A stretch of DNA of 64,000 nt from Bolinopsis microptera (Eukaryota; Ctenophora; Tentaculata; Lobata; Bolinopsidae), in the NCBI RefSeq assembly GCF_026151205.1, contig NC_087081.1, positions 14,499,340-14,563,339 on the forward strand, given 5' to 3'. The position numbers and the translations under genes were made by a program. Of this stretch, positions 39,746-63,930 are shown one piece after another (position 1 is the stretch's first letter; every line of letters starts with the position of its first letter). The notes under the pieces are model-generated. The model was given only the letters and a program-made list of their open reading frames with translations. It was not told the origin of the DNA and made no database searches.

Positions 39746-39812
39746 ATGGGGACAAACCTTGTCCGAACTGGCTTGCTATGTTTCCTTCTGTTTGGGATAG
39801 TCCACTGTGAAG
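39746..39812 (+). CDS. Gene B exon 1: signal peptide
   Basis: ATG at 39746 opens MGTNLVRTGLLCFLLFGIVH, a short positive start, a hydrophobic core and a likely cleavage near HCE. The donor GAAG|gtaagt is phase 1, and the split codon joins the first repeat exon to give E-D-C. Chosen as the start because it is the only signal-like ATG with the right phase upstream of the array. Confidence 0.85.
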
Positions 39813-42800
39813 GTAAGTGCGTATTATGAAAAGGCGCGTACTATATCTCCGCAAATTTTGAAGCACTGAATGACGTGCAAGAGTCAAAATTTGATTTTTC
39901 TCGTTGGATGGTGAGATGTAAGATATACAAGGGGCCATTCATAAAAGTAAGCCTGTGAAATCCGTTGAGTATATTATATACTCACATCTTAAGCCAAAAA
40001 TTATTTTTCATAAAACAGGCAATCCTGAATCCACGAATCTTAACTCGTAAGCAGAGCCTCAGGATACAATTTGCCTCATATTTTGGGCTCACTAGCTCAA
40101 ACATTTTGCTCACTGAAACTAAGTCTCGACTTAGCGAATCTACGTTTTGACTACATTGGATTACGATCAAATTATACGTATATATAAAGTGAGTATAAAG
40201 GTACGCAGATCTAGTGTTTCCGCTCTTATCTTTCGGTGTATGACCACTTGGATTACAATTTATACATGTCGTGAACCGAAATTTTAACTCTATTTTTACA
40301 CAAAAAAGAGTTAATCGATAAAATTCTTACAATCATAAGACCGATTTTGCCCGCTGCGGCATTACCTCATTACTACGCCACACGCGTACTGTCCTGTGAT
40401 GCTTATCTTTTGTTAAGTTTTACTATCGCATTACCAAGTTTGATACTCCTATTTGTATTTTGTATACGGATATCGTTGTATTAATCAGATAGGAGATAAA
40501 CCACCATTTAAACTCAGTGTGAAAGTAGAAATGATAGACTACTCACAATAGAGGTGCCGCTAAGGGCATCCTTTATAAATTGACAGAACGCGGGCACAGT
40601 TGATCGGGATCACTCTGAGCTGTATTCACGTTCAGAGCTTTTCTTATAACCTTCCTCTTATTATCTTGTTATATCCTGCACTGTAAGGCATCACTTTCTC
40701 ATTGCATATCATGCCTCTGGGCCAGCCATTGTTTATGATTACGAACAGCGTGCTATAATATACATATCAAAAGTGATATGGGACCTCAAGGATAAAAATA
40801 TTGACTATAGCATAGACCGGAAGATAATATAAGCGATAGACTGAAATACTGATGTCAACAAGAAAAGTTTAGTAATTGTACAATTAGTACTACTTTAAGT
40901 TTATGAGGTCCCATCGCAGATGCTGGAAAGAAATTCCTGTGAATCAAATGCAACTATTGTATGTGAACACCCGCACACACTTTGACACTTATCCAATATT
41001 CAAATAAAAGCAAACTATCCCTAAAAGGTTACTTCGAATTTTAGGCTGCTCGCCAGCGGCTCAAACTTGCAACTAATATTTTACTAAACTCGACTATACT
41101 TGCAGAAGATTGTATCGCGGGCCAGTTTCTGGATCAGACAAATGGCTGTACAGACTGTCCGGCAGATGAATGGAGTGCAGCAGCAAACACAGCTGCTTCC
41201 TGCACTGCCTGTCCAACTGGAAAAGAGGTAGCCACTGGAAAAGGAACACAAGAAAGTGACTGTACATGGAGTAAGTTGTTGTTTCCTAACAAGAATTGCG
41301 CCCCGTGTTTCGTTTTGGCGGACATTAGATTTCCGTTCACTATAACTATAAATATAAGCTCCAATCAGCTCACTTCATAATAATAATATTGATACACATC
41401 AGTACACTATACTACGCATGCCACGTACAAATTGGGCTTATAACCTAATACTATACATAGCATAGTATACATTAAAATACACTCGCGCCGCGCATTCATT
41501 GACAGGCTAGCTATATACGTTACATCATATCTCCCCAAGCAATACTCGCGCGCTGCACTGCGCGCTAGTTCTCTAGTTGTCATGGTAACGGACGGAAAGA
41601 ATGATACCATATCTAAACCCACCTACAACTATCTCCAAAATCCACGTTTTTCTGCAAAATTAAAAACGTCCATTCGTAACCTTTCACTATTGCCTTTTTA
41701 CAAAAGGGTGAACGGAAAAAATTGGTGGGACCAAAGGGATTCATCCTGAAATTTATGTTAATCTTAGAAATGCAATAATGTATGCAAATAAACATAGACT
41801 GAAACACTGACGTCAACAAGCAAAGTAAAGTAATTGTACAGGGTGGGCCAAAAGTCAGTGTGCAAACGTTTGCCTTAATAGCTCAGTCACTGAGTGCCCA
41901 ATTGAAATACTTCCTTCTGGTATGACTTAGTACCACCACTGGTTCGAGGAATTTGTCAACTCGAAAAATATTCGCGTTCATTTTTTTCAAATGGAGGTTC
42001 ATTTTCACATTTTTTTGATAGTTTGGATAATCGGATCAAGCTAAATGTTATTGAATTGTGTTTGGCCATTCGAATTACGTTTGTCATGAAAGAATTAGAA
42101 CTGTAGCTTCTCAGATGACCGAGATATGAAGCATAACAAGCTTGTTCATTACGTGTGATCAGGTGATTGGTTAACCTAATCACGTGATAAGGTGACCCCG
42201 TTAACTACCCCGTTAAACATTATGGGAATTGTTAAGGGTGCCCAATTAAGGTGTCGTGTCACGGTGTCACATAATCACCCAGTCAATTTGTTAACAAGAT
42301 ACACAAAATGCTTGTTAACTTCGTCATTTCTAATCCGTTTTGCCTCATTTTTTCAGATCATATGCAACATTTGATTATCTACCGTCTCTAAAAAAATTAG
42401 GCGTTCAGGATTTTCAGAGAAAACAATATAGGTGTTTTAATATTGAATGGGCGTGGTCTGAAATATTCGAATTTTCAAATTTTGACGACGGAATCCTCGA
42501 ACCAGTAAGTACAGTATGCCATCTGCAAAGCAACAGCTCTCAAATATAAAACTCAGCGGAGGTATAAGACCCAACGTTTGCACACTGACTTTTGGCCCAC
42601 CCTGTACAATTAATACTACTTTACGTTTATGAGGTCCCATCACAGATGCTCGAAAGGAATTTCTGTGATTCAAATGCAACTATTGTATGTGAACACCCGC
42701 ACACACTTTGACACTTATCCAATATTCAAATAAAAGCAAACCATCCCTAAAAAGCTAAAAGGGTACTTCGAATTTTAGGCTGCTCGCCAGCGGCTCAAAC

Positions 42801-45800
42801 TTGCAACTAATATTTTACTAAACTCGACTATACTTGCAGAAGATTGTATCGCGGGCCAGTTTCTGGATCAGACAAATGGCTGTACAGACTGTCCGGCAGA
42901 TGAATGGAGTGCAGCAGCAAACACAGCTACTACCTGCACTGCCTGTCCAACTGGAAAAGAGGTAGCCACTGGAAAAGGAACACAAGAAAGTGACTGTACA
43001 TGGAGTAAGTTGTTGTTTCCTAAAAATTGGTGTGACCAAAGGGATTCATCCTGAAATTTATGTTAATCTTAGAAATGCAATAATGTATGCGAATAAACAT
43101 AGACTGAAATACTGACGTCAACAAGCAAAGTTTAGTCATTGTACAATTATGTTACTGTACGTTTATGGGGTCCCATCACAGATGCTCGAAAGGAATTTCT
43201 GTGAATCAAATGCAACTATTGTATGTGAACACCCGCACACACTTTGACACTTATCCAATATTCAAATAAAAGCAAACCATCCCTAAAAGGGTACTTCGAA
43301 TTTTAGGCTGCTCGACAGCGGCTCAAACTTGCAACTAATATTTTACTAAATTCGACTATACTTGCAGAAGATTGTATTGCGGGCCAGTTTCTGGATCAGA
43401 CAAATGGCTGTACAGACTGTCCGGCAGATGAATGGAGTGCAGCAGCAAACACAGCTACTACCTGCACTGCCTGTCCAACTGGAAAAGAGGTAGCCACTGG
43501 AAAAGGAACACAAGAAAGTGACTGTACATGGAGTAAGTTGTTGTTTCCTAAAAATTGGTGTGACCAAAGGGATTCATCCTGAAATTTATGTTAATCTTAG
43601 AAATGCAATAATGTATGCAAATAAACATAGACTGAAACACTGACGTCAACAAGCAAAGTTTAGTAATTGTACAATTAATACTACTTTACGTTTATGAGGT
43701 CCCATCACAGATGCTCGAAAGGAATTTCTGTGATTCAAATGCAACTATTGTATGTGAACACCCGCACACACTTTGACACTTATCCAATATTCAAATAAAA
43801 GCAAACCATCCCTAAAAGGGTACTTCGAATTTTAGGCTGCTCGCCAGCGGCTCAAACTTGCAACTAATATTTGACTAAACTCGACTATACTTGCAGAAGA
43901 TTGTATTGCGGGCCAGTTTCTGGATCAGACAAATGGCTGTACAGACTGTCCGGCAGATGAATGGAGTGCAGCAGCAAACACAGCTACTACCTGCACTGCC
44001 TGTCCAACTGGAAAAGAGGTAGCCACTGGAAAAGGAACACAAGAAAGTGACTGTACATGGAGTAAGTTGTTGTTTCCTAAAAATTGGTGTGACCAAAGGG
44101 ATTCATCCTGAAATTTATGTTAATCTTAGAAATGCAATAATGTATGCAAATAAACATAGACTGAAACACTGACGTCAACAAGCAAAGTTTAGTCATTGTA
44201 CAATTATGTTACTGTACGTTTATGGGGTCCCATCACAGATGCTCGAAAGGAATTTCTGTGAATCAAATGCAACTATTGTATGTGAACACCCGCACACACT
44301 TTGACACTTATCCAATATTCAAATAAAAGCAAACCATCCCTAAAAGGGTACTTCGAATTTTAGGCTGCTCGACAGCGGCTCAAACTTGCAACTAATATTT
44401 GACTAAACTCGACTATACTTGCAGAAGATTGTATTGCGGGCCAGTTTCTGGATCAGACAAATGGCTGTACAGACTGTCCGGCAGATGAATGGAGTGCAGC
44501 AGCAAACACAGCTACTACCTGCACTGCCTGTCCAACTGGAAAAGAGGTAGCCACTGGAAAAGGAACACAAGAAAGTGACTGTACATGGAGTAAGTTGTTG
44601 TTTCCTAAAAATTGGTGTGACCAAAGGGATTCATCCTGAAATTTATGTTAATCTTAGAAATGCAATAATGTATGCAAATAAACATAGACTGAAACACTGA
44701 CGTCAACAAGCAAAGTTTAGTAATTGTACAATTAATACTACTTTACGTTTATGAGGTCCCATCACAGATGCTCGAAAGGAATTTCTGTGATTCAAATGCA
44801 ACTATTGTATGAACACCCGCACACACTTTGACACTTATCCAATATTCAAATAAAAGCAAACCATCCCTAAAAGGGTACTTCGAATTTTAGGCTGCTCGCC
44901 AGCGGCTCAAACTTGCAACTAATATTTGACTAAACTCGACTATACTTGCAGAAGATTGTATTGCGGGCCAGTTTCTGGATCAGACAAATGGCTGTACAGA
45001 CTGTCCGGCAGATGAATGGAGTGCAGCAGCAAACACAGCTACTACCTGCACTGCCTGTCCAACTGGAAAAGAGGTAGCCACTGGAAAAGGAACACAAGAA
45101 AGTGACTGTACATGGAGTAAGTTGTTGTTTCCTAAAATTTGGTGGGACCAAAGGGATTCATCCTGAAATTTATGTTAATCTTAGAAATGCAATAATGTAT
45201 GCGAATAAACATAGACTGAAACACTGACGTCAACAAGCAAAGTTTAGTAATTGTACAATTAATACTACTTTACGTTTATGAGGTCCCATCACAGATGCTC
45301 GAAAGGAATTTCTGTGATTCAAATGCATGTGAACACCCGCACACACTTTGACACTTATCCAATATTCAAATAAAAGCAAACCATCCCTAAAAGGGTACTT
45401 CGAATTTTAGGCTGCTCGCCAGCGGCTCAAACTTGCAACTAATATTTGACTAAACTCGACTATACTTGCAGAAGATTGTATTGCGGGCCAGTTTCTGGAT
45501 CAGACAAATGGCTGTACAGACTGTCCGGCAGATGAATGGAGTGCAGCAGCAAACACAGCTACTACCTGCACTGCCTGTCCAACTGGAAAAGAGGTAGCCA
45601 CTGGAAAAGGAACAAAAGAAAGTGACTGCACATGGAGTAAGTTGTTCTTTCCTAAAACTTGGAGGGACCAAAGGGATTCATCCTGACATTTATGTTAATC
45701 TTAGAAATGCAATAATGTATGCGAATAAACATAGACTGAAATACTGACATCAACAAGAAAAGTTTATTAATTGTACAATTAGTTAATTCCCAAAAATTTG

Positions 45801-48800
45801 GGCGACAAAAAATTTGAGCGGGCCTCTCGCCCAAATTTTTCGCAGACCAAATTAATTGCATAAATCTTTTCCGTCTGCTAAATTTTTTGCTAACCAAACT
45901 TTTGGCATTTGGCCTGTGGCCCTGAAATCTATAGAAAGATGGCTTTTTCTTCATATCCAAGTGAAATAATATTTGAAATTTTAATTTACTAAACTGCTTA
46001 AACTTGTTGAAGATTCCGGACCAACTTTGCAATCCCTTCAAAACAAGGCTGAAAAGGCTCGTGAGCGCATCAGGAAAACCCACCAAAAGAAAATTCAGTT
46101 TCATCTCAACAAACAGGGAACAGAAGCCAACCCTCCTTCTTCAAATTCCAAACGCAAGAAGTGGAGAAAAGCATCTGCCGAAAAGAAGAAGGCCAGGCGC
46201 AAACGCTACCAGAAAAACAAGCAGAACCGGAAAAAGTTATGGTTGGAACAGAGAGTCAAGGAGATATCGTCCACAGTTGTGAGAAATCTCTCCCATGTAG
46301 AAGTCCCCGATATAGCATTTTTGTATCTGGCCAAAGGCTTGAACTTTGTGGAAAGTAAAAAGGCAAGTAAGGAAGACCTTCAGTATGACACCAAAGAGTT
46401 CTTACGTAAAGTTTCATGGAAGGCGTTCTTTCATGATAACCCAACTGAGAACAATAGTTTCAACGAAGACGAACATCCTGGCTTAAGGATACCTTCAAGA
46501 AGGCATCCTGAGTACAGCAACCCGCTCTTTGATGAAATAAAAACAAAACTGATGGGTTTCGTAAACAGCTTCATGCCTGCTGACCCAAAGTCTAACCTGA
46601 CACCAGCAGAGAGGAGAGGGAAGAGATGGATTTTGAAAAATATAGAAGATGAGAACATCTTTGTCACCAAAGCTGACAAAGGAGGATCGACCTTGATTCT
46701 TGACTATAAGGAAGCTGTGGAATGTGTTCAAAGGAACTTAGGAGATAGAGAGAACTTTGCTCATTCCCAAATGTCAGTTGAAGAGAAAATGACAGATGTG
46801 AAGAATAATGTTAAGGATGCAGTTCTTCTGGCTTTATCAGAGGGGAAAATCACAGAAAAAGACAAGAAACTCATTACTGGACTTAATGAAAATAATAACC
46901 AAATGCATGCACAATGCACATGTATTCAAACCAGTAGTCCCTTATGTCTACCCTCTATTTAAGCTACACAAATTAAGTCCACAACAGATTGAGGAGAAAA
47001 TGGTTCCCCCTACCAGGCTTGTCCATGCCACTAAGGAAGGCCCCCTTTACAGGCTAGAAAAGTGGGTTAGCCCATACCTAACAGATATAAGTAGGATTTA
47101 TTGCCAACAGGAGTTTCTCCTGGATACACCAGACCTTCTCAGTAACATAAAAAACCTTAATGAATCTGCAGACATGTCAAAATATAGCACCATCAACTTG
47201 TTTACTTTAGACGTGATCAGTCTGTATCCAAGCATAAAACCTGAAATAGCTATGTCTGCATTGGAACATGCCCTGAACGGTAGTGCTATGATTGATAAAC
47301 GAAAGGCTATTCTGAAAACATTCACGGAGATTATCTTCACAAACTCCTTTGTCACTTTTCAAGAAAATGTGTACACAGGCAAAAAGGGTATCCCAACTGG
47401 AAATTGTATTTCGCGTCAAGTCGCTGATATCATGCTTCATTGGGTGCTATTCATCAACATCTGGCCTGAAATGATACAGCTATGGAGTCTTATTTTATTC
47501 TGGCGACGCTTCATCGACGATGTCTTTGGAATTTGGAAGGGCTACAGGAGGCAATTTGATCTTTTTGTGTCGAAACTAAATGAAGCCGCAAAACGATTTG
47601 GAATTCAGTTCGGTGATTGCCAGTTTGGCAAATCAGTTAACTACTTGGATGTAGAACTCTCACTGGGGGAGAACAACAACATCTACTACAGACTATTTAA
47701 GAAAGAGACTGATGCCAGGCTTTACCTTAATACTGATAGTTTCCACCCAAACCACGTCTTTAAATCAGTAGTATTCTCACAGATGATCCGAGTGATCAAG
47801 CGAAATTCGCAGGATCACACATGTGTGGAGGACCTGGAGGAACTGAAAGAAGACCTAATGAAAAGTGGACACAAGGAGGGGACCTTAACGGAAACAGAGC
47901 CTGAAGCAGTCTTGAGGTCAATAGAACACGATTTGTATGAGAGGGAAGATAAGAAGCCAATCACTGACAAAGTTGTCTTTTCAGTGAAATTTTTCAAAGA
48001 GGTCACTGAACTTAGGAAGTTGGTACACACTACTAGTGAGGACATCAAACAATTATGCGGAGACGTACAGATATTGTTTGCACTACGTAAACAGCCATCT
48101 ATAGGCAAAACAGTAGTGCGCAATAGAAAACTCAGTTCGTGCTCCGAAACGGATTCTTTCACCGTCAGCCAAAACTGTGGCGGAGAGGCTGTGCAACCTG
48201 TCCCCAACTGTTCAACTCCAACGAAGTTATCACTGTCAATGGTTTGGATTTAACTCTGGATTTCCGGTTGACATGTAAGGACAGCAATATAATTTATGTC
48301 GCCCAATGCCAAATTTGTAATAAACTTCCCCAGAGCCTGAAAGACGACACCTATTTCGGCCAAACAGTTTCTCCATTTCATATCAGAATGAATGGACACA
48401 GAAACAAGTTTAAAATTGATAATGAATTGTCATTTGAGAAGTCGGCATGCATTGTTTTCTAGCGCATAAATCTGATTTCACTATGGGAGTTTTTAAATTA
48501 GGTGTAGTAAGAAAAGTCCGACCAACAGCACTTGATAGAGAAGAGAGCATTCTTATTTCAAAATTTAGAACTAATATTTTTGGGTTAAATAGGATTGTAG
48601 TTACTCGCTGAATAATCTGTTATGCTCTACCTAGCACATTGAGCTCTTTAGTAAAGTTTCAGATTAAAAACTGTTTTGAATTTTCAAGTTGTTAACTTTT
48701 AAATTGCTTTCATTAGTCTAACCTAATTTTATTTTTATAGGCTAGTGATGTAAATATACGAAGAATTCACCTATATTTGTGCTGTCTTACTATGTGTCCA

Positions 48801-51800
48801 AACCAAATTGAATTTACTAATCTGTCATTCATGGCTTGACCAAGTAAAAAGGCTTATATTTTAAATGAAGAGAAATGACTGGAATAGCTAACAGCTACTA
48901 ATAAAACAAATGGCTAGAGGTACGGATAGCTAGAGATTTAAACAAGATCTGCAAATGGATTATCATCCACCGTAAAGTCTGATCTACAAGCATCAGTTAT
49001 ACCCGACTTCTCAAAGCCTTTCCTTATGTCATCTGGCCTCCCTTTTAAATATACAAAAAGTTCGTTGATCCAACGAGCGTGTACTTCACGGATCACTGTC
49101 AAGCGGGTATCAATTTTCACATTGTCTGATGAAACTCCTCCATTGAGCTGACACACTATGTTTTTCGCGTACCAATCTTCGTACTTATTGCGCATGAATT
49201 TCTTAGCCAGTCCATTGATAGATATGTCCAGGGGCTGTAGATGATGGGTCATATTAGCTGGAACTTTCTGTAGGATGCAGTTGTTGGCTGTCATCAGATC
49301 TTTTAGTGTCTGTGTGTGTTGGGCCCGAAACACATCTGATATCAGTAGCGCTTTCTGCTCAGGGTTGTTGATGGAGGCTCGAACTGATTCTATGTGGGGA
49401 AGAAGGATTTTCTCAAAGAACTGGACACTGGTCAGGGTATTAGAAAGCAAAATGACTGGAATAATAAGGAATAATAATGAACTGAGGCAAATATCTAACT
49501 GAAATTTTAGTGGAAAATCGTTCATTTTTCGAAGAATTTGTGCCCAAATTTTCGGTCGCCCAAATGAGTTCAAATTTTCTGCCCAAATTTTTCGGGCTCA
49601 AATAAATTGTGCTCAATATAATGGCACACAAATTTTTGGGAACTAAGGTACTTTACGTTTATGAGGTCCCATCACAGATGCTCGAAAGGAATTTCTGTGA
49701 ATCAAATGCAACTATTGTATGTGAACACCCGCACACACTTTGACACTTATCCAATATTCAAGTAAAAGCAAACCATCCCTAAAAGGGTACTTCGAATTTT
49801 AGGCTGCTCGCCAGCGGCTCAAACTTGCAACTAATATTTGACTAAACTCGACTATACTTGCAGAAGATTGTATTGCGGGCCAGTTTCTGGATCAGACAAA
49901 TGGCTGTACAGACTGTCCGGCAGATGAATGGAGTGCAGCAGCAAACACAGCTACTACCTGCACTGCCTGTCCAACTGGAAAAGAGGTAGCCACTGGAAAA
50001 GGAACACAAGAAAGTGACTGTACATGGAGTAAGTTGTTGTTTCCTAAAATTTGGTGGGACCAAAGGGATTCATCCTGAAATTTATGTTAATCTTAGAAAT
50101 GCAATAATGTATGCGAATAAACATAGACTGAAACACTGACGTCAACAAGCAAAGTTTAGTAATTGTACAATTAATACTACTTTACGTTTATGAGGTCCCA
50201 TCACAGATGCTCGAAAGGAATTTCTGTGATTCAAATGCAACTATTGTATGTGAACACCCGCACACACTTTGACACTTATCCAATATTCAAATAAAAGCAA
50301 ACCATCCCTAAAAGGGTACTTCGAATTTTAGGCTGCTCGCCAGCGGCTCAAACTTGCAACTAATATTTGACTAAACTCGACTATACTTGCAGAAGATTGT
50401 ATTGCGGGCCAGTTTCTGGATCAGACAAATGGCTGTACAGACTGTCCGGCAGATGAATGGAGTGCAGCAGCAAACACAGCTACTACCTGCACTGCCTGTC
50501 CAACTGGAAAAGAGGTAGCCACTGGAAAAGGAACACAAGAAAGTGACTGTACATGGAGTAAGTTGTTGTTTCCTAAAATTTGGTGGGACCAAAGGGATTC
50601 ATCCTGAAATTTATGTTAATCTTAGAAATGCAATAATGTATGCGAATAAACATAGACTGAAACACTGACGTCAACAAGCAAAGTTTAGTAATTGTACAAT
50701 CAATACTACTTTACGTTTATGAGGTCCCATCACAGATGCTCGAAAGGAATTTCTGTGATTCAATTCAAATGCATGTGAACACCCGCACACACTTTGACAC
50801 TTATCCAATATTCAAATAAAAGCAAACCATCCCTAAAAGGGTACTTCGAATTTTAGGCTGCTCGCCAGCGGCTCAAACTTGCAACTAATATTTGACTAAA
50901 CTCGACTATACTTGCAGAAGATTGTATTGCGGGCCAGTTTCTGGATCAGACAAATGGCTGTACAGACTGTCCGGCAGATGAATGGAGTGCAGCAGCAAAC
51001 ACAGCTACTACCTGCACTGCCTGTCCAACTGGAAAAGAGGTAGCCACTGGAAAAGGAACAAAAGAAAGTGACTGCACATGGAGTAAGTTGTTCTTTCCTA
51101 AAACTTGGAGGGACCAAAGGGATTCATCCTGAAATTTATGTTAATCTTAGAAATGCAATAATGTATGCAAATAAACATAGACTGAAACACTGACGTCAAC
51201 AAGCAAAGTTTAGTAATTGTACAATCAATACTACTTTACGTTTATGAGGTCCCATCACAGATGCTCGAAAAGAATTTCTGTGATTCAAATGCATGTGAAC
51301 ACCCGCACACACTTTGACACTTATCCAATATTCAAATAAAAGCAAACCATCCCTAAAAGGGTACTCCGAATTTTAGGCTGCTCGCCAGCGGCTCAAACTT
51401 GCAACTAATATTTGACTAAACTCGACTATACTTGCAGAAGATTGTATTGCGGGCAAGTTTCTGGATCAGACAAATGGCTGTACAGACTGTCCGGCAGATG
51501 AATGGAGTGCAGCAGCAAACACAGGTACTACCTGCACTGCCTGTCCAACTGGAAAAGAGGTAGCCACTGGAAAAGGAACAAAAGAAAGTGACTGCACATG
51601 GAGTAAGTTGTTCTTTCCTAAAACTTGGAGGGACCAAAGGGATTCATCCTGACATTTATGTTAATCTTAGAAATGCAATAATGCATGCGAATAAACATAG
51701 ACTGAAATACTGACGTCAACAAGCAAAGTTTAGTAATTGTACAATTAATACTACTTTACGTTTATGAGGTCCCATCACAGATGCTCGAAAGGAATTTCTG

Positions 51801-54800
51801 TGATTCAAATGCAACTATTGTATGTGAACACCCGCACACACTTTGACACTTATCCAATATTCAAATAAAAGCAAACCATCCCTAAAAGGGTACTTCGAAT
51901 TTTAGGCTGCTCGCCAGCGGCTCAAACTTGCAACTAATATTTGACTAAACTCGACTATACTTGCAGAAGATTGTATTGCGGGCCAGTTTCTGGATCAGAC
52001 AAATGGCTGTACAGACTGTCCGGCAGATGAATGGAGTGCAGCAGCAAACACAGCTACTACCTGCACTGCCTGTCCAACTGGAAAAGAGGTAGCCACTGGA
52101 AAAGGAACACAAGAAAGTGACTGCACATGGAGTAAGTTGTTCTTTCCTAAAACTTGGAGGGACCAAAGGGATTCATCCTGAAATTTATGTTAATCTTAGA
52201 AATGCAATAATGTATGCGAATAAACATAGACTGAAATACTGACATCAACAAGAAAAGTTTATTAATTGTACAATTAGTACTACTTTACGTTTATGAGGTC
52301 CCATCACAGATGCTCGAAAGGAATTTCTGTGAATCAAATGCAACTATTGTATGTGAACACCCGCACACACTTTGACACTTATCCAATATTCAAATAAAAG
52401 CAAACCATCCCTAAAAGGGTACTTCGAATTTTAGGCTGCTCGCCAGCGGCTCAAACTTGCAACTGATATTTGACTAAACTCGACTATACTTGCAGAAATT
52501 GTATTGCGGGCCAGTTTCTGGATCAGACAAATGGCTGTACAGACTGTCCGGCAGATGAATGGAGTGCAGCAGCAAACACAGCTACTACCTGCACTGCCTG
52601 TCCAACTGGAAAAGAGGTAGCCACTGGAAAAGGAACAAAAGAAAGTGACTGCACATGGAGTAAGTTGTTCTTTCCTAAAACTTGGAGGGACCAAAGGGAT
52701 TCATCCTGAAATTTATGTTAATCTTAGAAATGCAATAGTGTATGCGAATAAACATAGACTGAAATACTGACATCAACAAGAAAAGTTTATTAATTGTACA
52801 ATTAGTACTACTTTACGTTTATGAGGTCCCATCACAGATGCTCGAAAGGAATTTCTGTGAATCAAATGCAACTATTGTATGTGAACACCCGCACACACTT
52901 TGACACTTATCCAATATTCAAGTAAAAGCAAACCATCCCTAAAAGGGTACTTCGAATTTTAGGCTGCTCGCCAGCGGCTCAAACTTGCAACTAATATTTG
53001 ACTAAACTCGACTATACTTGCAGAAAATTGTATTGCGGGCCAGTTTCTGGATCAGACAAATGGCTGTACAGACTGTCCGGCAGATGAATGGAGTGCAGCA
53101 GCAAACACAGCTACTACCTGTACTGCCTGTCCAACTGGAAAAGAGGTAGCCACTGGAAAAGGAACAAAAGAAAGTGACTGCACATGGAGTAAGTTGTTCT
53201 TTCCTAAAACTTGGAGGGACCAAAGGGATTCATCCTAAAATTTATGTTAATCTTAGAAATGCAATAGTGTATGCTTATAAACATAGACTGAAATACTGAC
53301 ATCAACAAGAAAAGTTTATTAATTGTACAATTAGTACTACTTTACGTTTATGAGGTCCCATCACAGATGCTCGAAAGGAATTTCTGTGAATCAAATGCAA
53401 CTATTGTATGTGAACACCCGCACACACTTTGACACTTATCCAATATTCAAATAAAAGCAAACCATCCCTAAAAGGGTACTTCGAATTTTAGGCTGCTCGC
53501 CAGCGGCTCAAACTTGCAACTGATATTTGACTAAACTCGACTATACTTGCAGAAAATTGTATTGCGGGCCAGTTTCTGGATCAGACAAATGGCTGTACAG
53601 ACTGTCCGGCAGATGAATGGAGTGCAGCAGCAAACACAGCTACTACCTGCACTGCCTGTCCAACTGGAAAAGAGGTAGCCACTGGAAAAGGAACAAAAGA
53701 AAGTGACTGCACATGGAGTAAGTTGTTCTTTCCTAAAACTTGGAGGGACCAAAGGGATTCATCCTAAAATTTATGTTAATCTTAGAAATGCAATAGTGTA
53801 TGCGAATAAACATAGACTGAAATACTGACATCAACAAGAAAAGTTTATTAATTGTACAATTAGTACTACTTTACGTTTATGAGGTCCCATCACAGATGCT
53901 CGAAAGGAATTTCTGTGAATCAAATGCAACTATTGTATGTGAACACCCGCACACACTTTGACACTTATCCAATATTCAAGTAAAAGCAAACCATCCCTAA
54001 AAGGGTACTTCGAATTTTAGGCTGCTCGCCAGCGGCTCAAACTTGCAACTAATATTTGACTAAACTAGACTATACTTGCAGAAAATTGTATTGCGGGCCA
54101 GTTTCTGGATCAGACAAATGGCTGTACAGACTGTCCGGCAGATGAATGGAGTGCAGCAGCAAACACAGCTACTACCTGTACTGCCTGTCCAACTGGAAAA
54201 GAGGTAGCCACTGGAAAAGGAACAAAAGAAAGTGACTGCACATGGAGTAAGTTGTTCTTTCCTAAAACTTGGAGGGACCAAAGGGATTCATCCTAAAATT
54301 TATGTTAATCTTAGAAATGCAATAGTGTATGCGAATAAACATAGACTGAAATACTGACATCAACAAGAAAAGTTTATTAATTGTACAATTAGTACTACTT
54401 TACGTTTATGAGGTCCCATCACAGATGCTCGAAAGGAATTTCTGTGAATCAAATACAACTATTGTATGTGAACACCCGCACACACTTTGACAATTATCAC
54501 AATGCTGGCAAGCATTACCGTCGCCCTTATATTCACAATACTATTTACCCCCTATACTAGTATATCCCCTTTATTGTTTTCCAGGCATTAAGACTCATCA
54601 AAAGTAGTTCAGCAGGTATATTTAAGTTCAAAACATTCTAATTCAATGTTAAGGATGACAGGAATAAGAAATAGTTATGTGGAGGTTTTTAAGAAATTTG
54701 CGCAAAATACGCGCCAGCATGTTATACGAAATTAGGTAAAAAACCCAAAATCGCCATATTCAGGTGCCTTAAAAACCATGTTAAAATTGAGTTAGAGATC

Positions 54801-57800
54801 TGAAACTTTGCAGGGCGTCTAGACCTTGTCCAAATCGACTGTTAAAAAAATTTCATGTGTCAGGAGTATCGGGAAGTGGGTTTTCTGGAACCCCTGTTTT
54901 ACAACAGATTGTCGTGAAGTATATATATATATATATTATATATATATAGACGCTTTTGCAGTCAATTGTAGCCTACATTTAAGTGTCCGTAGATTCAAAA
55001 GTATAAAAGATACAGTCATTTCGAACCTCAGGTTTTAAAGATAATTGTTTATACTTTAGTTTACATTATATCAAAAAATAATTTATCTTCATCATCATCA
55101 CTTGATGACGTCATCAAATTAAGTGTTTTTAAAACTTGATTTTTGACAAAGTAACAACTTTTCAAATCGATTTTAAACCATTAAGGAGTAATTTTATTCA
55201 AAATCGGAGGAAATTTTTACCTTAGATAATTGTTCAAGCATTCTGAAAATCTACCGGAAAAGTTTCTTACTTTGCTCCTTCATAAAGATATTCGCTATTG
55301 AAGTAATTGCTTTTTTGAAGAATAATTTTATAAAAACACAAAAGTTGTGAATTAGTATTCTCTGGTGTTGGGCCATCCCTTGGGTTGTGGAGCTCAATTT
55401 TGCCTTTTAAAGGTCTAAATTGTGTTATAGGCTAGTTTTAAAGTTAAAAATCAAAAAGTTGCACACGTGGGGACACGCCCAATTTGATAGAAAATTGCTA
55501 AAATTACTGAAAATTGCTGTTTTCACCATTTTTATCAACTTTGGAGTCCCGTTGTGATCCAAGTTCTATATGAAATCTTCTGAAACTTTGCATGCTTATT
55601 AAACTATATATAAAGTACTGCTATGCAAAAATTTACGGTGATTCATTATTGTTTCCGCATGCAGCGTCCGCTCAAAGTTTGCACGTGCGAAAGGTGAGAA
55701 TTTTGCTCATTCGTGATTTCGAATAAATTCTGCTTTCCCACGATATTTAAATGGCATTATATATGAATTTAATGCCAACTTGAATGAGTAAAAAGTGCCA
55801 TATTCAGTCAGATAAAATTTCGAAATCGATGAAATTACCTCCTAATTATTAATATGAATATTAATGAAGTTATGAGTTTACATTTCGGCTTTGTAAATTA
55901 TCCTGACATTATAATCAAAAAGAGATGATATTTGACCAAAACCCATAATCATAGGTAGAGTGTACCGCTGCCAGTGTCTCTCTTTTCCAAACAAAAGGAA
56001 ATGATATTAATTTGAATAACCGTCCGCAAATGCAAATTGATACCGATAATGAAATCGGTCGCTCGCTTTTTCCATTCGATCACGGCTTACGAATTGTAAT
56101 AAAGCTTATTGATTGGAAAAAGCGAGCGACCGATTTCATTCTCGGTATCAATTTGCATTTGCGGACAGTTATTCAAATTAATATCATTTCCTTTTGTTTG
56201 GAAAAGAGAGACACTGGCAGCGGTACACTCTACCCATGATTATGGGTTTTGGTCAAATCCAATATTCAAATAAAAGCAAACCATCCCTAAAAGGGTACTT
56301 CGAATTTTAGGCTGCTCGCCAGCGGCTCAAACTTGCAACTAATATTTGACTAAACTCGACTATACTTGCAGAAGATTGTATTGCGGGCCAGTTTCTGGAT
56401 CAGACAAATGGCTGTACAGACTGTCCGGCAGATGAATGGAGTGCAGCAGCAAACACAGCTACTACATGCACTGCCTGTCCAACTGGAAAAGAGGTAGCCA
56501 CTGGAAAAGGAACACAAGAAAGTGACTGTACATGGAGTAAGTTGTTGTTTCCTAAAAATTAGTGGGACCAAAGGGATTCATCCTGAAATTTATGTTAATC
56601 TTAGAAATGCAATAATGTATGTAAATAAACATAGACTGAAACACTGACGTCAACAAGAAAAGTTTAGTAATTGTACAATTAATACTACTTTACGTTTATG
56701 AGGTCCCATCACAGATGCTCGAAAGGAATTTCTGTGATTCAAATGCAACTATTGTATGTGAACACCCGCACACACTTTGACACTTATCCAATATTCAAAT
56801 AAAAGCAAACCATCCCTAAAAGGGTATTTCGAATTTTAGGCTGCTCGCCAGCGGCTCAAACTTGCAACTAATATTTGATTAAACTCGACTATACTTTCAG
56901 AAGATTGTATTGCGGGCCAGTTTCTGGATCAGACAAATGGCTGTACAGACTGTCCGGCAGATGAATGGAGTGCAGCAGCAAACACAGCTACTACCTGCAC
57001 TGCCTGTCCAACTGGAAAAGAGGTAGCCACTGGAAAAGGAACACAAGAAAGTGACTGTACATGGAGTAAGTTGTTGTTTCCTAAAAATTAGTGGGACCAA
57101 AGGGATTCATCCTGAAATTTATGTTAATCTTAGAAATGCAATAATGTATGTCAATAAACATAGACTGAAACACTGACATCAACAAGCAAAGTTTAGTAAT
57201 TGTACAATTAATACTACTTTACGTTTATGAGGTCCCATCACAGATGCTCGAAAGGAATTTCTGTGATTCAAATGCAACTATTGTATGTGAACACCCGCAC
57301 ACACTTTGACAATTATCCAATATTCAAATAAAAGCAAACCATCCCTAAAAGGGTATTTCGAATTTTAGGCTGCTCGCCAGCGGCTCAAACTTGCAACTAA
57401 TATTTGACTAAACTCGACTATACTTGCAGAAGATTGTATTGCGGGCCAGTTTCTGGATCAGACAAATGGCTGTACAGACTGTCCGGCAGATGAATGGAGT
57501 GCAGCAGCAAACACAGCTACTACCTGCACTGCCTGTCCAACTGGAAAAGAGGTAGCCACTGGAAAAGGAACAAAAGAAAGTGACTGCACATGGAGTAAGT
57601 TGTTCTTTCCTAAAACTTTGAGGGACCAAAGGGATTCATCCTGAAATTTATGTTAGTTTTAGCAATGCAATAATGTATGCGAATAAACATAGACTAAAAT
57701 ACTGATATCAACAAGAAAAGTTTAGTAATTGTACAATTAGTACTACTTTACATTTATGAGGTCCCATCACAGATGCTCGAAAGGAATTTCTGTGATTCAA

Positions 57801-59494
57801 ATGCAACTATTGTATGTGAACACCCGAACACACTTTGACAATTATCCAATATTCAAATAAAAGCAAACCATCCCTAAAAGGGTATTTCGAATTTTAGGCT
57901 GCTCGCCAGCGGCTCAAACTTGCAACTAATATTTGACTAAACTCGACTATACTTGCAGAAGATTGTATTGCGGGCCAGTTTCTGGATCAGACAAATGGCT
58001 GTACAGACTGTCCGGCAGATGAATGGAGTGCAGCAGCAAACACAGCTACTACCTGCACTGCCTGTCCAACTGGAAAAGAGGTAGCCACTGGAAAAGGAAC
58101 AAAAGAAAGTGACTGCACATGGAGTAAGTTGTTCTTTCCTAAAACTTTGAGGGACCAAAGGGATGCATTTTGAAATTTATGTTAGTTTTAGCAATGCAAT
58201 AATGTATGCGAATAAACATAGACTAAAATACTGATATCAACAAGAAAATTTTAGTAATTGTACAATTAGTACTACTTTACATTTATGAGGTCCCATCACA
58301 GTTGCTCGAAAGGAATTTCTGTGATTCAAATGCAACTATTGTATGTGAACACCCGCACACACTTTGACAATTATCCAATATTCAAATAAAAGCAAACCAT
58401 CCCTAAAAGGGTATTTTGAATTTGAGGCTGCTCGCCAGCGGCTCAAACTTGCAACTAATATTTGACTAAACTCGACTATACTTGCAGAAGATTGTATTGC
58501 GGGCCAGTTTCTGGATCAGACAAATGGCTGTACAGACTGTCCGGCAGATGAATGGAGTGCAGCAGCAAACACAGCTACTACCTGCACTGCCTGTCCAACT
58601 GGAAAAGAGGTAGCCACTGGAAAAGGAACAAAAGAAAGTGACTGTACATGGAGTAAGTTGTTGTTTCTTAAAAATTAGTGGGACCAAAGGGATTCATCCT
58701 GAAATTTATGTTAATCTTAGAAATGCAATAATGTATGTGAATAAACATAGACTGAAACACTGACGTCAACAAGCAAAGTTTAATAATTGTACAATTAATA
58801 CTACTTTACGTTTATGAGGTCCCATCACAGATGCTCGAAAGGAATTTCTGTGATTCCAATGCAACTATTGTATGTGAACACCCGCACACACTTTGACACT
58901 TATCTAATATCTTACTATATATAAAGCGAGACGATATATATGTATATATCCGTGCCATTTTACTGACACCTCGGCATCAACTTTAACGCAACTTTCCACA
59001 AAAACCGTAAAAGATATACAACTGAACCTTTTTTGACTGGGTCAAATGCTTTAATGGCCTTCAAATCAGCATGAAAAAATAAAAAATTGGCCAAGGAATA
59101 ATAATTTTAGTGCCCAAAATTTGGACTCCCAAGTGGTGTCAAAAACGCGAAATAAATAGGTAATAATTATTTTAGTCTCTCGAGTCTTGACACCACTTTA
59201 GGGTTAGACGGGTTCCTGCTAGTTCAAATAAAAGCAAACCATCCCTAAAAGGGTACTTCGAATTTTAGGCTGCTCGCCAGCGGCTCAAACTTGCAACTAA
59301 TATTTGACTAAACTCGACTATACTCGCAGAAGACTGTATTGCGGGCCAGTTTCTGGATCAGACAAATGGCTGTACAGACTGTCCGGCAGATGAATGGAGT
59401 GCAGCAGCAAACACAGCTACTACCTGCACTGCCTGTCCAACTGGAAAAGAGGTAGCCACTGGAAAAAGAACACAAGAAAGTGACTGTACATGGA
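39746..59494 (+). CDS. Gene B: signal peptide plus 22 tandem Ephrin-receptor-like repeats (3' end outside window)
   Basis: A signal-peptide exon followed by 22 exons of 165 bp (one of 164), all phase 1-1, each coding one 55-residue module with six cysteines. Spliced in order they give a secreted or surface protein of more than 1,200 residues, whose C-terminal part is beyond the window. The repeats are almost identical, and so are the introns between them, so the array is young or being homogenised. Repeat 13 has a one-base deletion. It must be skipped, or it ends translation at a TAG at 52618. The module belongs to the GCC2/GCC3 (Ephrin-receptor-like) group by cysteine spacing. Degenerate repeats of this type also occur near the membrane in gene A, 8 kb upstream. 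Function unknown; adhesion or recognition is inferred. Confidence 0.83.
41106..41270 (+). CDS. Gene B repeat exon 1
   Basis: 55 codons. Module: DCIAGQF, NGCTDCPADEW, SCTACPTGKEV and SDCTW. This copy has AAS where most have ATT before the fourth cysteine and is the most diverged in its upstream intron, as expected of the array edge. Confidence 0.92.
41839..42604. mobile_element. Mariner-like MITE, copy 2, inside the array
   Basis: 766 bp with CAGGGTGGGCCAAAAGTC termini and a clean TA duplication (41837-41838, 42605-42606). Removing it restores the array sequence aattgTAcaatt. Confidence 0.9.
42840..43004 (+). CDS. Gene B repeat exon 2
   Basis: Standard module, TATTCTACP form. Pairs with exon 3 as a two-unit block that is repeated as exons 4-5. 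Confidence 0.93.
43368..43532 (+). CDS. Gene B repeat exon 3
   Basis: Standard module. The upstream intron has the attatgttactgtacg and ctcgacagcgg variants that recur before exon 5. Confidence 0.93.
43897..44061 (+). CDS. Gene B repeat exon 4
   Basis: Standard module, same protein as exon 2. The upstream intron matches that of exon 2 (attaatactactttacg). Confidence 0.93.
44425..44589 (+). CDS. Gene B repeat exon 5
   Basis: Standard module. Its upstream intron shares the rare variants of exon 3. Confidence 0.93.
44952..45116 (+). CDS. Gene B repeat exon 6
   Basis: Standard module with GTQESDC. The upstream intron has lost four bases in the ctattgtatgtgaac block. Confidence 0.93.
45472..45636 (+). 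CDS. Gene B repeat exon 7
   Basis: First copy with GTKESDC (K for Q) and a silent tgcaca change. This K form dominates the following block. A composite transposon follows in the next intron. Confidence 0.93.
46000..48462 (+). pseudogene. Penelope-like retroelement (RT plus GIY-YIG), frameshifted
   Basis: Three overlapping frames form one PLE polyprotein. The first, to 46962, has a basic N-terminal region (KKKARRKRYQKNKQNRKK) and the conserved ENIFVTKADKGGSTLILDYK. The second (from about 46900 to 48253) is the RT: YPLFKLHKLSP, LFTLDVISLYPSIKPEIA (motif A), KKGIPTGNCIS (motif B), RRFIDDVFGIW (motif C) and FHPNHVFKSVVFSQMIRV. The third (to 48462) has the GIY-YIG-type nuclease IIYVAQCQIC, DTYFGQT and FHIRMNGHRNKF. 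Frame changes near 46905 and 48230 make it inactive. RT with a GIY-YIG domain is diagnostic of Penelope-like elements. Confidence 0.88.
48938..49573 (-). pseudogene. Pogo/Tigger-type DDE transposase fragment
   Basis: Minus-strand frame matching the catalytic C-terminal half of DDE_1 (CENP-B/pogo family) transposases: KALLISDVFRAQHTQTLKDL, LQKVPANMTHHLQPLDISIN and KKFMRNKYEDWYA, then a tail with RWINELFVYL. Two catalytic aspartates (in ISDVF and QPLDIS) are visible. The N-terminal DNA-binding part and first catalytic Asp are missing, and the frame runs straight into the terminal inverted repeat, so it is an internally deleted copy. Confidence 0.82.
49864..50028 (+). CDS. Gene B repeat exon 8
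   Basis: Standard module with GTQESDC, resuming right after the composite transposon. Confidence 0.93.
50393..50557 (+). CDS. Gene B repeat exon 9
   Basis: Standard module, protein identical to exon 8. Confidence 0.93.
50918..51082 (+). CDS. Gene B repeat exon 10
   Basis: Standard module with GTKESDC. The upstream intron has the shortened aaatgcatgtgaac form also seen before exons 7 and 11. Confidence 0.93.
51438..51602 (+). CDS. Gene B repeat exon 11
   Basis: Module with two private changes: IAGKF for IAGQF and NTGTTC for NTATTC. GTKESDC form. Confidence 0.93.
51967..52131 (+). CDS. Gene B repeat exon 12
   Basis: Hybrid of the two forms: GTQESDC with the tgcaca codon and ttctttcc downstream intron otherwise linked to GTKESDC, which looks like gene conversion or unequal crossover inside the exon. 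Confidence 0.92.
52496..52659 (+). pseudogene. Gene B repeat exon 13, one-base deletion
   Basis: 164 instead of 165 bp: the start reads cag|aaattgt where others have cag|aagattgt or cag|aaaattgt. Splice sites are intact. If included, the frame shifts and ends at TAG 52618-52620 within the exon. If skipped, the protein continues in frame. A sequencing or assembly error is the alternative. Confidence 0.88.
53024..53188 (+). CDS. Gene B repeat exon 14
   Basis: Standard module with NC in place of DC at the first cysteine (aaaattgt) and a silent tgtact. Pairs with exon 16. Confidence 0.93.
53553..53717 (+). CDS. Gene B repeat exon 15
   Basis: Module with NC at the first cysteine. The intron variant aactgatattt upstream is shared with exon 13. 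Confidence 0.93.
54082..54246 (+). CDS. Gene B repeat exon 16
   Basis: Module with NC, identical to exon 14 including its silent change and the caagtaaaagc intron variant. Followed by a family X insertion. Confidence 0.93.
54497..56257 (-). mobile_element. Family X element inserted in the array, inverted
   Basis: About 1.76 kb, the reverse complement of 1531-3302, with the tail hairpin aatgctggcaagcatt at its left and the 327-bp palindrome at its right. Flanks read aattatc and ccaatattc. Uninterrupted units read acttatccaatattc, so there is no target duplication longer than one base. Confidence 0.85.
55931..56257. repeat. 327-bp palindrome, second copy
   Basis: Same length and termini as 1531-1857 with scattered substitutions. 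The palindrome is maintained in both, which points to a functional end. Confidence 0.85.
56372..56536 (+). CDS. Gene B repeat exon 17
   Basis: Standard module, GTQESDC. First exon after the family X insertion. Confidence 0.93.
56901..57065 (+). CDS. Gene B repeat exon 18
   Basis: Standard module. The acceptor reads actttcag rather than acttgcag, still a good splice site. Confidence 0.93.
57430..57594 (+). CDS. Gene B repeat exon 19
   Basis: Standard module, GTKESDC. The downstream intron carries ttagttttagcaatgc, shared only with exon 20. Confidence 0.93.
57959..58123 (+). CDS. Gene B repeat exon 20
   Basis: Same module as exon 19, with near-identical flanks, so exons 19-20 are a very recent duplicate. 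Confidence 0.93.
58488..58652 (+). CDS. Gene B repeat exon 21
   Basis: Module with GTKESDC and the tgtaca codon: again a hybrid of the two forms. The next intron holds a Helitron. Confidence 0.93.
58910..59222 (+). mobile_element. Non-autonomous Helitron
   Basis: 313 bp starting TCTTACTATATATAAAGCGA and ending GGGTTCCTGCTAG, inserted between A and T (flanks ctaata and ttcaaat). Uninterrupted units read caatattcaaat, so there is no target duplication. It has an 11-12 bp terminal stem (aagtggtgtcaa/ttgacaccactt). The 5' TC, 3' CTAG and A^T insertion are the Helitron signature. Confidence 0.85.
59330..59494 (+). CDS. Gene B repeat exon 22 (last in window)
   Basis: Module with GKRTQESDC (R for G) and an agactgt start. 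Its acceptor is ctcgcag. The gene must continue beyond the LINE and Helitron that fill the rest of the window. Confidence 0.92.
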
Positions 59495-59783
59495 GTAAGT
59501 TGTTGTTTCCTAAAAATTAGTGGGACCAAAGGGATTCATCCTGAAATTTATGTTAATCTTAGAAATGCAATAATGTATGTGAATAAACATAGACTGAAAC
59601 ACTGACGTCAACAAGCAAAGTTTAGTAATTGTACAATTAATACTACTTTACGTTTATGAGGTCCCATCACAGATGCTCGAAAGGAATTTCTGTGATTCAA
59701 ATGCAACTATTGTATGTGAACACCCGCACACACTTTGACACTTATCTAATATCTTACTATATATAAAGCGAGACGATATATGC

Positions 59784-60107
59784 TTCTCAGCGCTGATACC
59801 CTCCTCTAATGACTCTTATATCAATGACAGGTTACGTATCATCAACGAGGAGATCAGAAACCATATAACTTGGCTCCACAACCACAAGCCGGAAGTCAAA
59901 GATAGGATCTTCACCTTCACAAATGAGAAGATTGGCGACCAAAGCACTTATTCGCCCAGCACAGGCTTCAAACTCAGTCAGAGAGGCCAAAACATGCTCT
60001 GGCTTCGCCTCAGGGAAGGTCTGAGGAAGACATTACGCCTCCCCCGATTAAGTTACCACGAGGGCAACAAAGCAAGACGCAGCACTAACAGGTATAGCGA
60101 TGACTAA
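59784..60107 (+). pseudogene. LINE ORF1, C-terminal end (5'-truncated)
   Basis: In-frame from the element's 5' junction to TAA at 60105-60107: YINDRLRIINEEIRNHITW, FTFTNEKIGDQS, STGFKLSQRGQNMLWLRL and LPRLSYHEGNKARRS. The arrangement resembles the end of an esterase-type ORF1, but that is tentative. Its stop overlaps the ORF2 start by eight bases (ATGACTAA). Confidence 0.65.
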
Positions 60108-63100: not shown

Positions 63101-63678
63101 CAACTATTGCCAAGATGAGTACAGTCTCCAAGCCGCAGTTATCACCCACCCTAGACGCTTGTGAGTACATACATGAGACATTTGTTGACCATTGGAAGAG
63201 AGATCTCCTCAACCAGCCCAAAATGTCTTTCTACACAGCGGTTAAATTCGAGTTTGGCGAAGAACCCTATTTACAGCTCCCCTGCCGGCTTAAAAGGGTC
63301 AATATTGCTAAACTCCGATCTAGCAGTCACGATCTTAGGATAGAAAAAGGTCGCTACACCAAAGATCAACTCAACACAGCTCTTAAAACGTGTCGCTTCT
63401 GCTGCTCCTCAGAAACGGATGTCATACGTTTTTTAGAGGAGCTCCCCTTCTTTGAAACTCCTATTCTAGAAACCGAAGACCACGTCCTAACTGAGTGCCC
63501 CTACTACCATCAACCCAGGTCCGACCTCTCTGACAACCTCAAAAGCCTGTTGATGCTAAAAGAATATGGAGCAATAATGAACTCACTCCATATAAAAGAG
63601 TTCGGGAAGTACCTTACAGACTCCTCAAATCTACGTAATCCTCCTAAAACGTCCCTTAACCCTCGCAAACAGATGTAG
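60100..63678 (+). CDS. LINE ORF2: endonuclease-reverse transcriptase, intact
   Basis: 1,192 residues without a stop. An AP-type endonuclease fills about the first 290 residues (RFLCWNINHSRD, ALQETKGE, LLGDFNARTG near 165, YSDHRPLSM near 280). The RT follows: PLHKKGDRQNPDNYRAITIG, CFVDYRKAFDSV, GTEQGHPMSPELF and the catalytic WADDLVLLA starting at residue 763. The C-terminal region has a CRFCC...HVLTECPYY zinc-knuckle motif near 1097-1140. It nicks target DNA and primes cDNA synthesis. The clade is not assigned; the C-terminal motif recurs in the relics at 9110 and 38750. The ATG at 60100 is preferred because it overlaps the ORF1 stop. A recently active copy, but 5'-truncated. Confidence 0.93.
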   Translation: MTKSTSKRSRHSLRFLCWNINHSRDKTEGPKVDIPEIQDLFKSHDIFALQETKGEINFSNYCCFNSNRKGSNSGGVCIGVHKSLQAGVTHVQMNASEDIVVVKLKANYFDLERNTYLVNVYDSPTNGSFKKRRRDIETEVSNSTLEHLQEFLADIPLSEDVILLGDFNARTGTMDDMMSDNRHLKDYELNAHYCKQLTKRNNSDLKLNTNGRPFIELLQTTGLVILNGRTLGDIFGAPTCIQRHGVSTVDYICVSTSLHDKIRQLKIESISQYSDHRPLSMTISTNHLKRFSTSNDTKDIQDAPKSFKWNRSENLSADSATQFRSAQNDQTFKDKIEHLLNQPANTADEATRLNRDLVATYHNLANSVTTTKRGTRTNKKKWFDLNCRRAKSAASRADRNANRNPHSNFLRNQHFLKKKEYRAIKSTKKGKYLFEMNQKINESGNVNWAALKQLSEQHKDEEPFDIYDLLLFHKFFNDLYNRKCSKNHHADDDVVSTPTTDELLNTKNLVDSLNRDFTLQETKDAIKKLKNNKSVSDDLISNEMLKNSNEQLQLVLVKLFNACLQCGTYPWNNSITTPLHKKGDRQNPDNYRAITIGSCLGKLFSNLLLKRLIEFREIACPDRPYQLGFRSGAQCNDHLLTLNTIIEKYVKKEKKRLFACFVDYRKAFDSVCRDALLFKLGNMGLSGNFFTCISHMYNNSSTRVKLIQKLSAAIDVTIGTEQGHPMSPELFKVYIHELSIRLEQIEELNVPILNGIKVSHLLWADDLVLLALDAFSLQSLLNCLHDYAEKWELSVNIDKTSVMVFNTSSRTLKCSYGFKLGSLDIIPVKRYCYLGIQFSLNGSFKQAIDELRKKALRSFFSMRRIINTKALTTSTMLKLIDSLVKPVATYACPVWLSSTNIVKAILSKKEEVSLPKSAAKDPLETTHLKILKWILGVHKKANNNFCYGDTGRTPWTVTVIPQCLAYFHRASLAVEGNVNTLLHHTFQEQKLLNLTWYDAWSTIAKMSTVSKPQLSPTLDACEYIHETFVDHWKRDLLNQPKMSFYTAVKFEFGEEPYLQLPCRLKRVNIAKLRSSSHDLRIEKGRYTKDQLNTALKTCRFCCSSETDVIRFLEELPFFETPILETEDHVLTECPYYHQPRSDLSDNLKSLLMLKEYGAIMNSLHIKEFGKYLTDSSNLRNPPKTSLNPRKQM

Positions 63679-63930
63679 TACTCGAACTTTATTTACTGGT
63701 TTACCTTAAATTATTATAGACGATCTTCTTTTATTTTCGTGAAATTGTAAACGGTTAAATTTTACTATTTTTAAATGATTCAGTTTTGATAATTTTATTT
63801 ATTCATTTATTCATTTATTCATTTATTCATTTATTCATTTATTCATTCTTGTATAGCCAAGACGAGTCCGTTAGTGTTCTCTCTGGTAATTTCATGTTTA
63901 ATCCTGTTTAATCCTGTTTAATCCTGTTTA
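63679..63930 (+). other. LINE 3' untranslated region and repeat tail
   Basis: Contains an attcattt tandem at about 63800-63845 and ends in about three copies of gtttaatcct instead of poly(A). The relic at 9110-10111 has the same tail. Confidence 0.85.

Follow-up and report, generated by a model that had tools for sequence, protein, structure and literature searches.

Tandem near-identical exon-intron units encoding an Ephrin-receptor-like module in the ctenophore Bolinopsis microptera, with related units on other contigs

The coding multi-exon VNTR KIV-2 of LPA is built of near-identical units, repeated in tandem, that comprise both exon and intron. Its 5.6-kb unit contains two exons and codes for an extracellular, disulphide-rich module, and 1 to about 40 copies occur per allele. 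PRDM9 zinc-finger arrays combine homogenised repeats with diversified contact positions; these lie in one exon, without introns. In Argiope, the MaSp2 genes, which encode silk proteins, have repeated exons, and their introns are reported to average 97.6% alike within a gene and to turn over rapidly between genes; homogenisation helped by the introns is proposed there (PMC9779670). In the SSSGP genes of the Hessian fly, non-coding parts, including an intron, are reported to be more conserved than coding parts, and positive selection combined with homogenisation is the proposed explanation (PMC2955719).

The locus described here lies in a window of 64,000 nucleotides on contig NC_087081.1 of Bolinopsis microptera, where a gene that we call gene B carries a tandem array of exons for a CRD module (labeled C10a; C1 to C13 are contigs). 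As in LPA KIV-2, the C10a units are near-identical, comprise both exon and intron, and code for a disulphide-rich module. The C10a unit, however, has a length of 0.53 kb and a single exon, its copy number comes from one assembly, and, unlike LPA KIV-2, it has related units on many chromosomes. C10a is a candidate coding multi-exon VNTR of the LPA KIV-2 kind on two findings, namely that exon and intron form the tandem unit and that gain or loss of a unit would preserve the reading frame for 21 of the 22 exons in the window. C10a also resembles Argiope MaSp2 in having near-identical introns within the gene (mean difference of 3.7% among 18 clean introns), but across the wider family the introns are alike between arrays as well and it is the exons that differ more (19 of 21 pairs of arrays), unlike the reported rapid turnover of MaSp2 introns (PMC9779670). 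Hessian fly SSSGP are described as complete genes of small size that mostly lie in a single cluster, whereas the arrays here consist of internal exons (PMC2955719). LPA KIV-2, Argiope MaSp2, and Hessian fly SSSGP each share part of the pattern. A literature search that covered the domain in cnidarians and ctenophores, arrays of tandem exons, and introns conserved beyond their exons, but reached few subscription journals and is weak evidence of absence, recognized no report of the full combination, and the word ‘ephrin’ is absent from the main text of a paper on ctenophore immune genes (PMC11797021).

The features of gene B and its array are as follows, in window positions.

39746..39812, plus strand: candidate first exon with signal peptide MGTNLVRTGLLCFLLFGIVHCE, ending in phase 1 before GTAAGT (donor at 39813 read by eye)
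40836..41044, plus strand: part of an intron of the unit type (unit positions 321-528), lying before unit 1, from blastn
41106..45636, plus strand: CRD exons 1-7, 165 nt each, starting at 41106, 42840, 43368, 43897, 44425, 44952, and 45472
41293-41716: second insertion in intron 1, 424 bp
41841..42602, unstranded: TIR transposon in intron 1, with TGTACA at each side
45786..49640, unstranded: 3.9-kb insertion in intron 7
49864..52131, plus strand: CRD exons 8-12, starting at 49864, 50393, 50918, 51438, and 51967
52496..52659, plus strand: CRD exon 13, 164 nt
53024..54246, plus strand: CRD exons 14-16, starting at 53024, 53553, and 54082
54504..56256, unstranded: insertion of 1.75 kb within intron 16; it contains a 151-bp hairpin whose arms are at 55930-56080 and 56108-56258
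56372..58652, plus strand: CRD exons 17-21, starting at 56372, 56901, 57430, 57959, and 58488
58911..59222, unstranded: 312-bp insertion in intron 21
59330..59494, plus strand: CRD exon 22, the final one inside the window (exons 23 and 24 are outside)
59782..63928, plus strand: ~4.15 kb containing a LINE (ORF 60052-63675, endonuclease and RVT_1 domains)

With the 528-bp unit as blastn query, 22 units were found at 41045-59752 within the window, and the matches spanning the whole unit have 93.8-99.2% identity. The array is real in the assembly and far beyond chance. The AG acceptor and GTAAGT donor are intact in all 22 window exons, and 21 of these have the length (165 nt), phase (1-1), and six cysteines that the initial annotation had ascribed to all 22. 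The exception is exon 13 (52496-52659), which has 164 nt, lacks one A in a run of A, and is frameshifted. Inclusion of exon 13 leads to a stop after 41 codons, and joining of exon 12 to exon 14 preserves the frame; the missing A is either a mutation or a sequence error. In-frame gain and loss, which had been proposed for every exon, likewise holds for the 21 exons of 165 nt and phase 1-1 but not for the one of 164 nt. Nor does the array end at 59494, as had been thought: two further exons are found past the window, at C10:14563661 and 14564187 (L001:320-484 and 849-1013), beyond a LINE nested in intron 22. C10a therefore totals 24 exon copies, 23 of them in frame, a count resting on one assembly. 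The identification of the module as Ephrin-receptor-like agrees with Pfam, as two tandem modules match Ephrin_rec_like (PF07699) at E 1.1e-6 and 28.8 bits, above the curated cut-off of 23.1.

Insertions are present in five introns, those of units 1, 7, 16, 21, and 22. The intron 7 insertion has a plus-strand ORF (46802-48250) that is Penelope-like by eye and has no Pfam match, along with a minus-strand fragment of a DDE_1 transposase (Pfam, 1e-6). The 312-bp insertion occupies the same site in introns 21 and 22 (identity of 100% over 29 bp and 98.9% over 284 bp), and the LINE is nested within the intron 22 copy, which it split later. The transposon of intron 1 (41838-42607) has a 96% identical copy at window 35185-35960. 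No Rfam family reached threshold within the window.

An array of this kind may be an artefact of assembly, with units miscounted or made alike by short-read polishing with multi-mapping reads. The published B. microptera assembly is described as a wtdbg2 assembly of PacBio reads, with Pilon used for polishing (PMC10232365), and if it is the assembly to which the window belongs, this procedure is the likely one here as well. It could have changed copy number, left indels, and erased small differences among near-identical units. The frameshift of exon 13 in a run of A and three exons of 166-167 nt in the array on C3 are in keeping with such errors. Against this, the units carry distinct patterns of variants and private TE insertions, and the intron sequence of the unit is present at 15 of 17 other loci. 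Furthermore, two units of the window array differ by up to 10%, and a true divergence of this size would hardly be erased by polishing, because reads from such units would map uniquely; nor would polishing be likely to create exon differences of 10%. We consider an artefact improbable.

The introns had been taken to be as alike as the exons, but they are about twice as diverged: the mean pairwise difference in C10a is 1.7% for the 24 exons and 3.7% for the 18 clean introns (exon 13 was trimmed one base early in this comparison). The diversity profile, restricted to clean units and excluding units that adjoin insertions, likewise gave π of 0.011 for the exon and 0.038 for the intron in 13 units. 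Minimum changes per site number 10/126 nonsynonymous, 5/36 synonymous, and 63/364 in the intron, with nonsynonymous changes being fewer than intron changes (Fisher p=0.013), and the pairwise NG86 ratio of dN to dS between units is 0.46. The C10a exon appears to be constrained, with selection holding its variation to about half that of the intron. The transposon load of the introns and the one frameshift might be expected of a decayed or non-coding, satellite-like array holding a former exon, as might the stop-bearing module copies scattered on C4 (3.36-3.45 Mb) and the broken units in C12b, C3, C4, and C4b. However, all 22 window splice pairs are intact and the exons are less diverged than the introns (p=0.013), and decay is very improbable for C10a.

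Several marks of exchange among units are evident in C10a. Neighboring units are more alike, and distance rises with separation (Mantel r=0.31, p=0.0006); the differences between units 3 and 5 and between units 6 and 8 are printed as 0 per mille; the two-unit blocks 2-3/4-5 and 13-14/15-16 look copied; and, in a four-gamete test of 630 pairs of informative columns, 133 fail. In trees of 66 units having both exon and intron, those 17 units of C10a whose introns are clean cluster together with either part (exon 97/94, intron 100/100). Neighbor similarity, the copying of two-unit blocks, and the TE insertion shared by units 21 and 22 point to unequal exchange and gene conversion. Of the two origins originally offered for the array, very recent or homogenized, the second agrees with these marks of exchange and conversion, while recency holds only in part, as units are up to 10% apart and introns hold nested TEs. 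The marks are those of exchange and conversion over some time rather than of a single recent burst.

In C10a, exon and intron repeat together as a unit of about 528 bp, one unit per module. Since the exons are phase 1-1 and repeat jointly with their introns, a misaligned crossover or conversion would add, remove, or overwrite units in frame, and misaligned crossover together with gene conversion would keep the units alike (concerted evolution). The unit is also a member of a dispersed family, with blocks that have most likely been copied between chromosomes as well, and between most arrays of this family exon divergence exceeds intron divergence.

Upstream of the array, a simple hydrophobicity scan of the 3 kb before unit 1 gave the ATG of exon 39746..39812 as the sole candidate start. 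Downstream and outside the window are 13 exons for Ig-like domains, a PLAT-like exon slightly under the Pfam cut-off, and a hydrophobic helix with lysines after it, which by eye was taken for a transmembrane segment. The signal-peptide exon from the scan and the hydrophobic segment with lysines read by eye are in accord with the earlier prediction of a surface protein. Of the other domains of an Eph receptor (ephrin-binding, FN3, kinase, and SAM), none was found in the subset of gene B exons scanned. Among five AlphaFold models of the CRD module, the best has a mean pLDDT of 89.5 and two are below 50; the modeled module matches thyroglobulin (TMq 0.76), the CRD of EphB2 (0.69), and TNFR-family CRDs (~0.5-0.6), none with E <0.001. 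An Ig-like exon was modeled with a pLDDT of 83.2, and its best structure match is Ig3 of MuSK (E 5e-4), with mostly Ig or antibody chains among the 50 matches listed. Pfam scores of the Ig-like exons are under the cut-off; 12 exons of gene B and two of gene A have in common C21, W35, and C86, the Cys-Trp-Cys core of Ig domains. The uniformity of the CRDs is special to the CRD block, as eleven of the Ig-like exons of gene B are only 40-71% identical to a twelfth.

Gene B probably encodes a large, predicted type I membrane protein whose CRD array is kept alike by concerted evolution. The most likely order is signal peptide, ~24 CRD modules, ~13 Ig-fold domains, further domains, and transmembrane segment. 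Points that weigh against this reading are the frameshifted exon, the two low-scoring CRD models, the want of a CRD structure match with E <0.001, and the negative signal-peptide scan of the upstream flanks fetched for 10 other arrays. We infer the full protein from the subset of exons that were scanned or modeled, and all gene B exons are presumed to be spliced together. The protein would form an extended stalk for binding or adhesion, and its copy number of modules would be expected to differ between individuals. A different use of the array, as a Dscam-like cluster of mutually exclusive alternative exons, might be imagined from the tandem arrangement and the uniform size and phase of the exons. 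But seven modules are 93-98% identical to one gene B module, and hardly any diversity would come from a choice among modules almost identical to one another; a run of many CRDs, by comparison, is an ordinary protein shape. A Dscam-like cluster is extremely improbable, and Dscam-type use was rejected for the window array, whose exons are nearly identical rather than diverse.

Relatives of the module were sought by six-frame searches of the genome, in which 150 of 512 candidates were scored and, in a second search, 150 of 619. By our own count of the two lists, matches occur in at least about 28 places on 12 contigs (C1-C8 and C10-C13). The window intron is matched at least partly at 15 of 17 other loci (16 of 18 with the window gene included). 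The arrays on C6 and C7 have a spacing of ~279 bp and introns unlike that of the window, for which reason they were omitted when units were compared. The C7 and C6 loci (L009 and L010) have two alternating types of module and match each other at up to 97%, flanks included. The possibility that the unit itself is a transposon was not supported, as the 40 intron matches scored (of 353 candidates) are all in module arrays. Broken or partial units occur in C12b, C3, C4, C4b, C5a, C8, and C12c. In addition, scattered module copies, many with stop codons, extend over C4:3360028-3455000, apparently a decayed array.

The arrays differ in what follows them: LDL-receptor A domains lie downstream of the C13 array and Ig exons downstream of the window array, and we read the exons after C12a and C3 as CCP-like, although these have no Pfam match. 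The same hydrophobicity scan found no signal-peptide exon in the upstream flanks fetched for 10 other arrays, and the genes of these arrays are for this reason incomplete in our data. Copying between contigs is suggested by shared segments. C1 and C8 have 3.2 kb in common at 97.5%, including ~2 kb of flank, and C13 and C1 have ~0.3 kb of flank in common on each side, with 96-99% identity over matches that include array units. Identical exon DNA occurs across C3, C4, and C13, and also across C13, C1, and C8. Four of the first five exons of C13 equal the C1/C8 exon and the remaining one differs from it at 1 of 162 positions, while the last four match C3/C4 at 0-1 differences in 162 positions. 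The C13 array is a hybrid in which C1/C8-type units occur together with C3/C4-type units and a single intermediate one.

Exon difference exceeds intron difference in 19 of the 21 array pairs (one pair being on one contig), with ranges between arrays of 3.8-15.5% for exons and 1.1-10.5% for introns. The exceptions are C10a/C12a and C10a/C2. Within arrays, exons differ on average more than introns in C3, C13, and, to a slight extent, C12b; there is no exon excess in C10a, C12a, or C2, and the two means are equal in C4. For 18 clean units of C3, exon π is 0.047 and intron π 0.0075, a sixfold difference in the reverse order to that of C10a. Zero π is found in the 20 bp flanking the C3 exon on either side, to which splice constraint may contribute. 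Upstream of the exon, between unit positions of about -60 and -20, the intron is more variable than elsewhere in C3, C4, and C13.

Codon counts were based on 88 exons, consisting of those with a tblastn match to both ends and seven added by hand, with the broken or partial units of C12b, C3, C4, C4b, C5a, C8, and C12c falling outside this set. Five of the 88 were dropped (the frameshifted C10a exon, three C3 exons of 166-167 nt, and one C4 exon with a stop), and 83 were kept. Nonsynonymous changes are in excess of intron changes in C3 (Fisher p=8e-8) and in C3, C4, C13, C1, C11, and C8 taken together (p=5e-11), and show no excess in C12a and C12b (p=0.35 and 0.82). C13 has 13 nonsynonymous and no synonymous changes (p=0.03); its pairwise NG86 values are 0 synonymous and 6.4 nonsynonymous per pair, but such extreme pairwise values are not relied on, as the pairs are not independent. 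By conservative counts, nonsynonymous changes do not significantly exceed synonymous ones in the recent group (p=0.06 and 0.076), in C3 (p=0.2 and 0.42), or in all arrays (p=0.41 and 0.62).

What we claim for the family is limited to the excess of exon over intron divergence, some arrays excepted; positive selection on family exons is suggested. We do not regard such selection as shown, because of the p values of 0.06 and 0.076 and because in C3 an excess over intron changes is seen for synonymous changes too (6/37 vs. 18/370, p=0.015). Either selection maintains exon diversity against homogenization, or exchange acts more on introns. The latter, in which introns are homogenized more effectively than exons without positive selection, has a probability only a little short of even. 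It is favored by the synonymous excess over intron changes in C3 and by the non-significant nonsynonymous/synonymous excess in the recent group, C3, and all arrays. It is favored as well by C3 unit 3779, whose intron has 0 of 371 differences from that of a C13 unit while its exon differs from every C13 exon at 19 or more of 162 positions. On the other hand, intron and exon share one copied block, and identical introns beside differing exons in one block would, by this reasoning, require selection or exchange bounded by the exon; the 13 nonsynonymous against 0 synonymous changes of C13 (p=0.03) also speak for selection.

A more doubtful reading is exon shuffling, in which the near-identical introns on different chromosomes are a shared recombination substrate by which CRD variants are moved between receptor genes through ectopic conversion and selected to be diverse. 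C13 fits this reading, in that its first exons are C1/C8-type, its last are C3/C4-type, and its ~0.3-kb flanks match C1. Were it true, surface receptors would vary between individuals in both length and binding modules, for example in recognition of non-self or pathogens. Should the pattern be borne out, a single genome would contain numerous natural replicates of the same exon-intron unit; in some of them the unit is homogenized and constrained, and in others near-identical introns accompany diverse exons. This would make it possible to test directly how recombination and selection affect different parts of a repeat, and could lead to a receptor family about which little is known in ctenophores, a lineage that arose early among animals.

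Some other features of the window and genome were noted. Gene A (window 10.7-32.3 kb) is a tandem paralogue of gene B, and stretches of it at 16458-32267 are collinear with their matches in the 3' part of gene B (78-97%). Gene A showed no CRD array. It has a tandem array of its own, with about three units of ~1.03 kb (window 12872-15795), each with two Ig exons, and these units are ~97% alike, introns included. At window 4574-6136, GC-rich blocks of 10-40 bp tandem repeats occur around AGCGCTGG, on one strand and then the other. In the genome, comparison of TRPM genes did not support a Nematostella origin, and searches for STING, GFP, and let-7 gave no matches, which does not imply that these are absent. 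Elsewhere in the genome, 32 matches to the glutamate-receptor ligand-binding family were found, 10 of them in open frames of at least 900 codons; four such loci that were searched against solved structures pointed to a ctenophore. For two of the four (L033 and L036), the best solved structure is that of Mnemiopsis leidyi ML032222a (E 9.7e-121 and 3.3e-74, respectively), and the first of the two is 70% identical to it over 136 residues; for the other two (L030 and L035), the best solved structures are kainate receptors.
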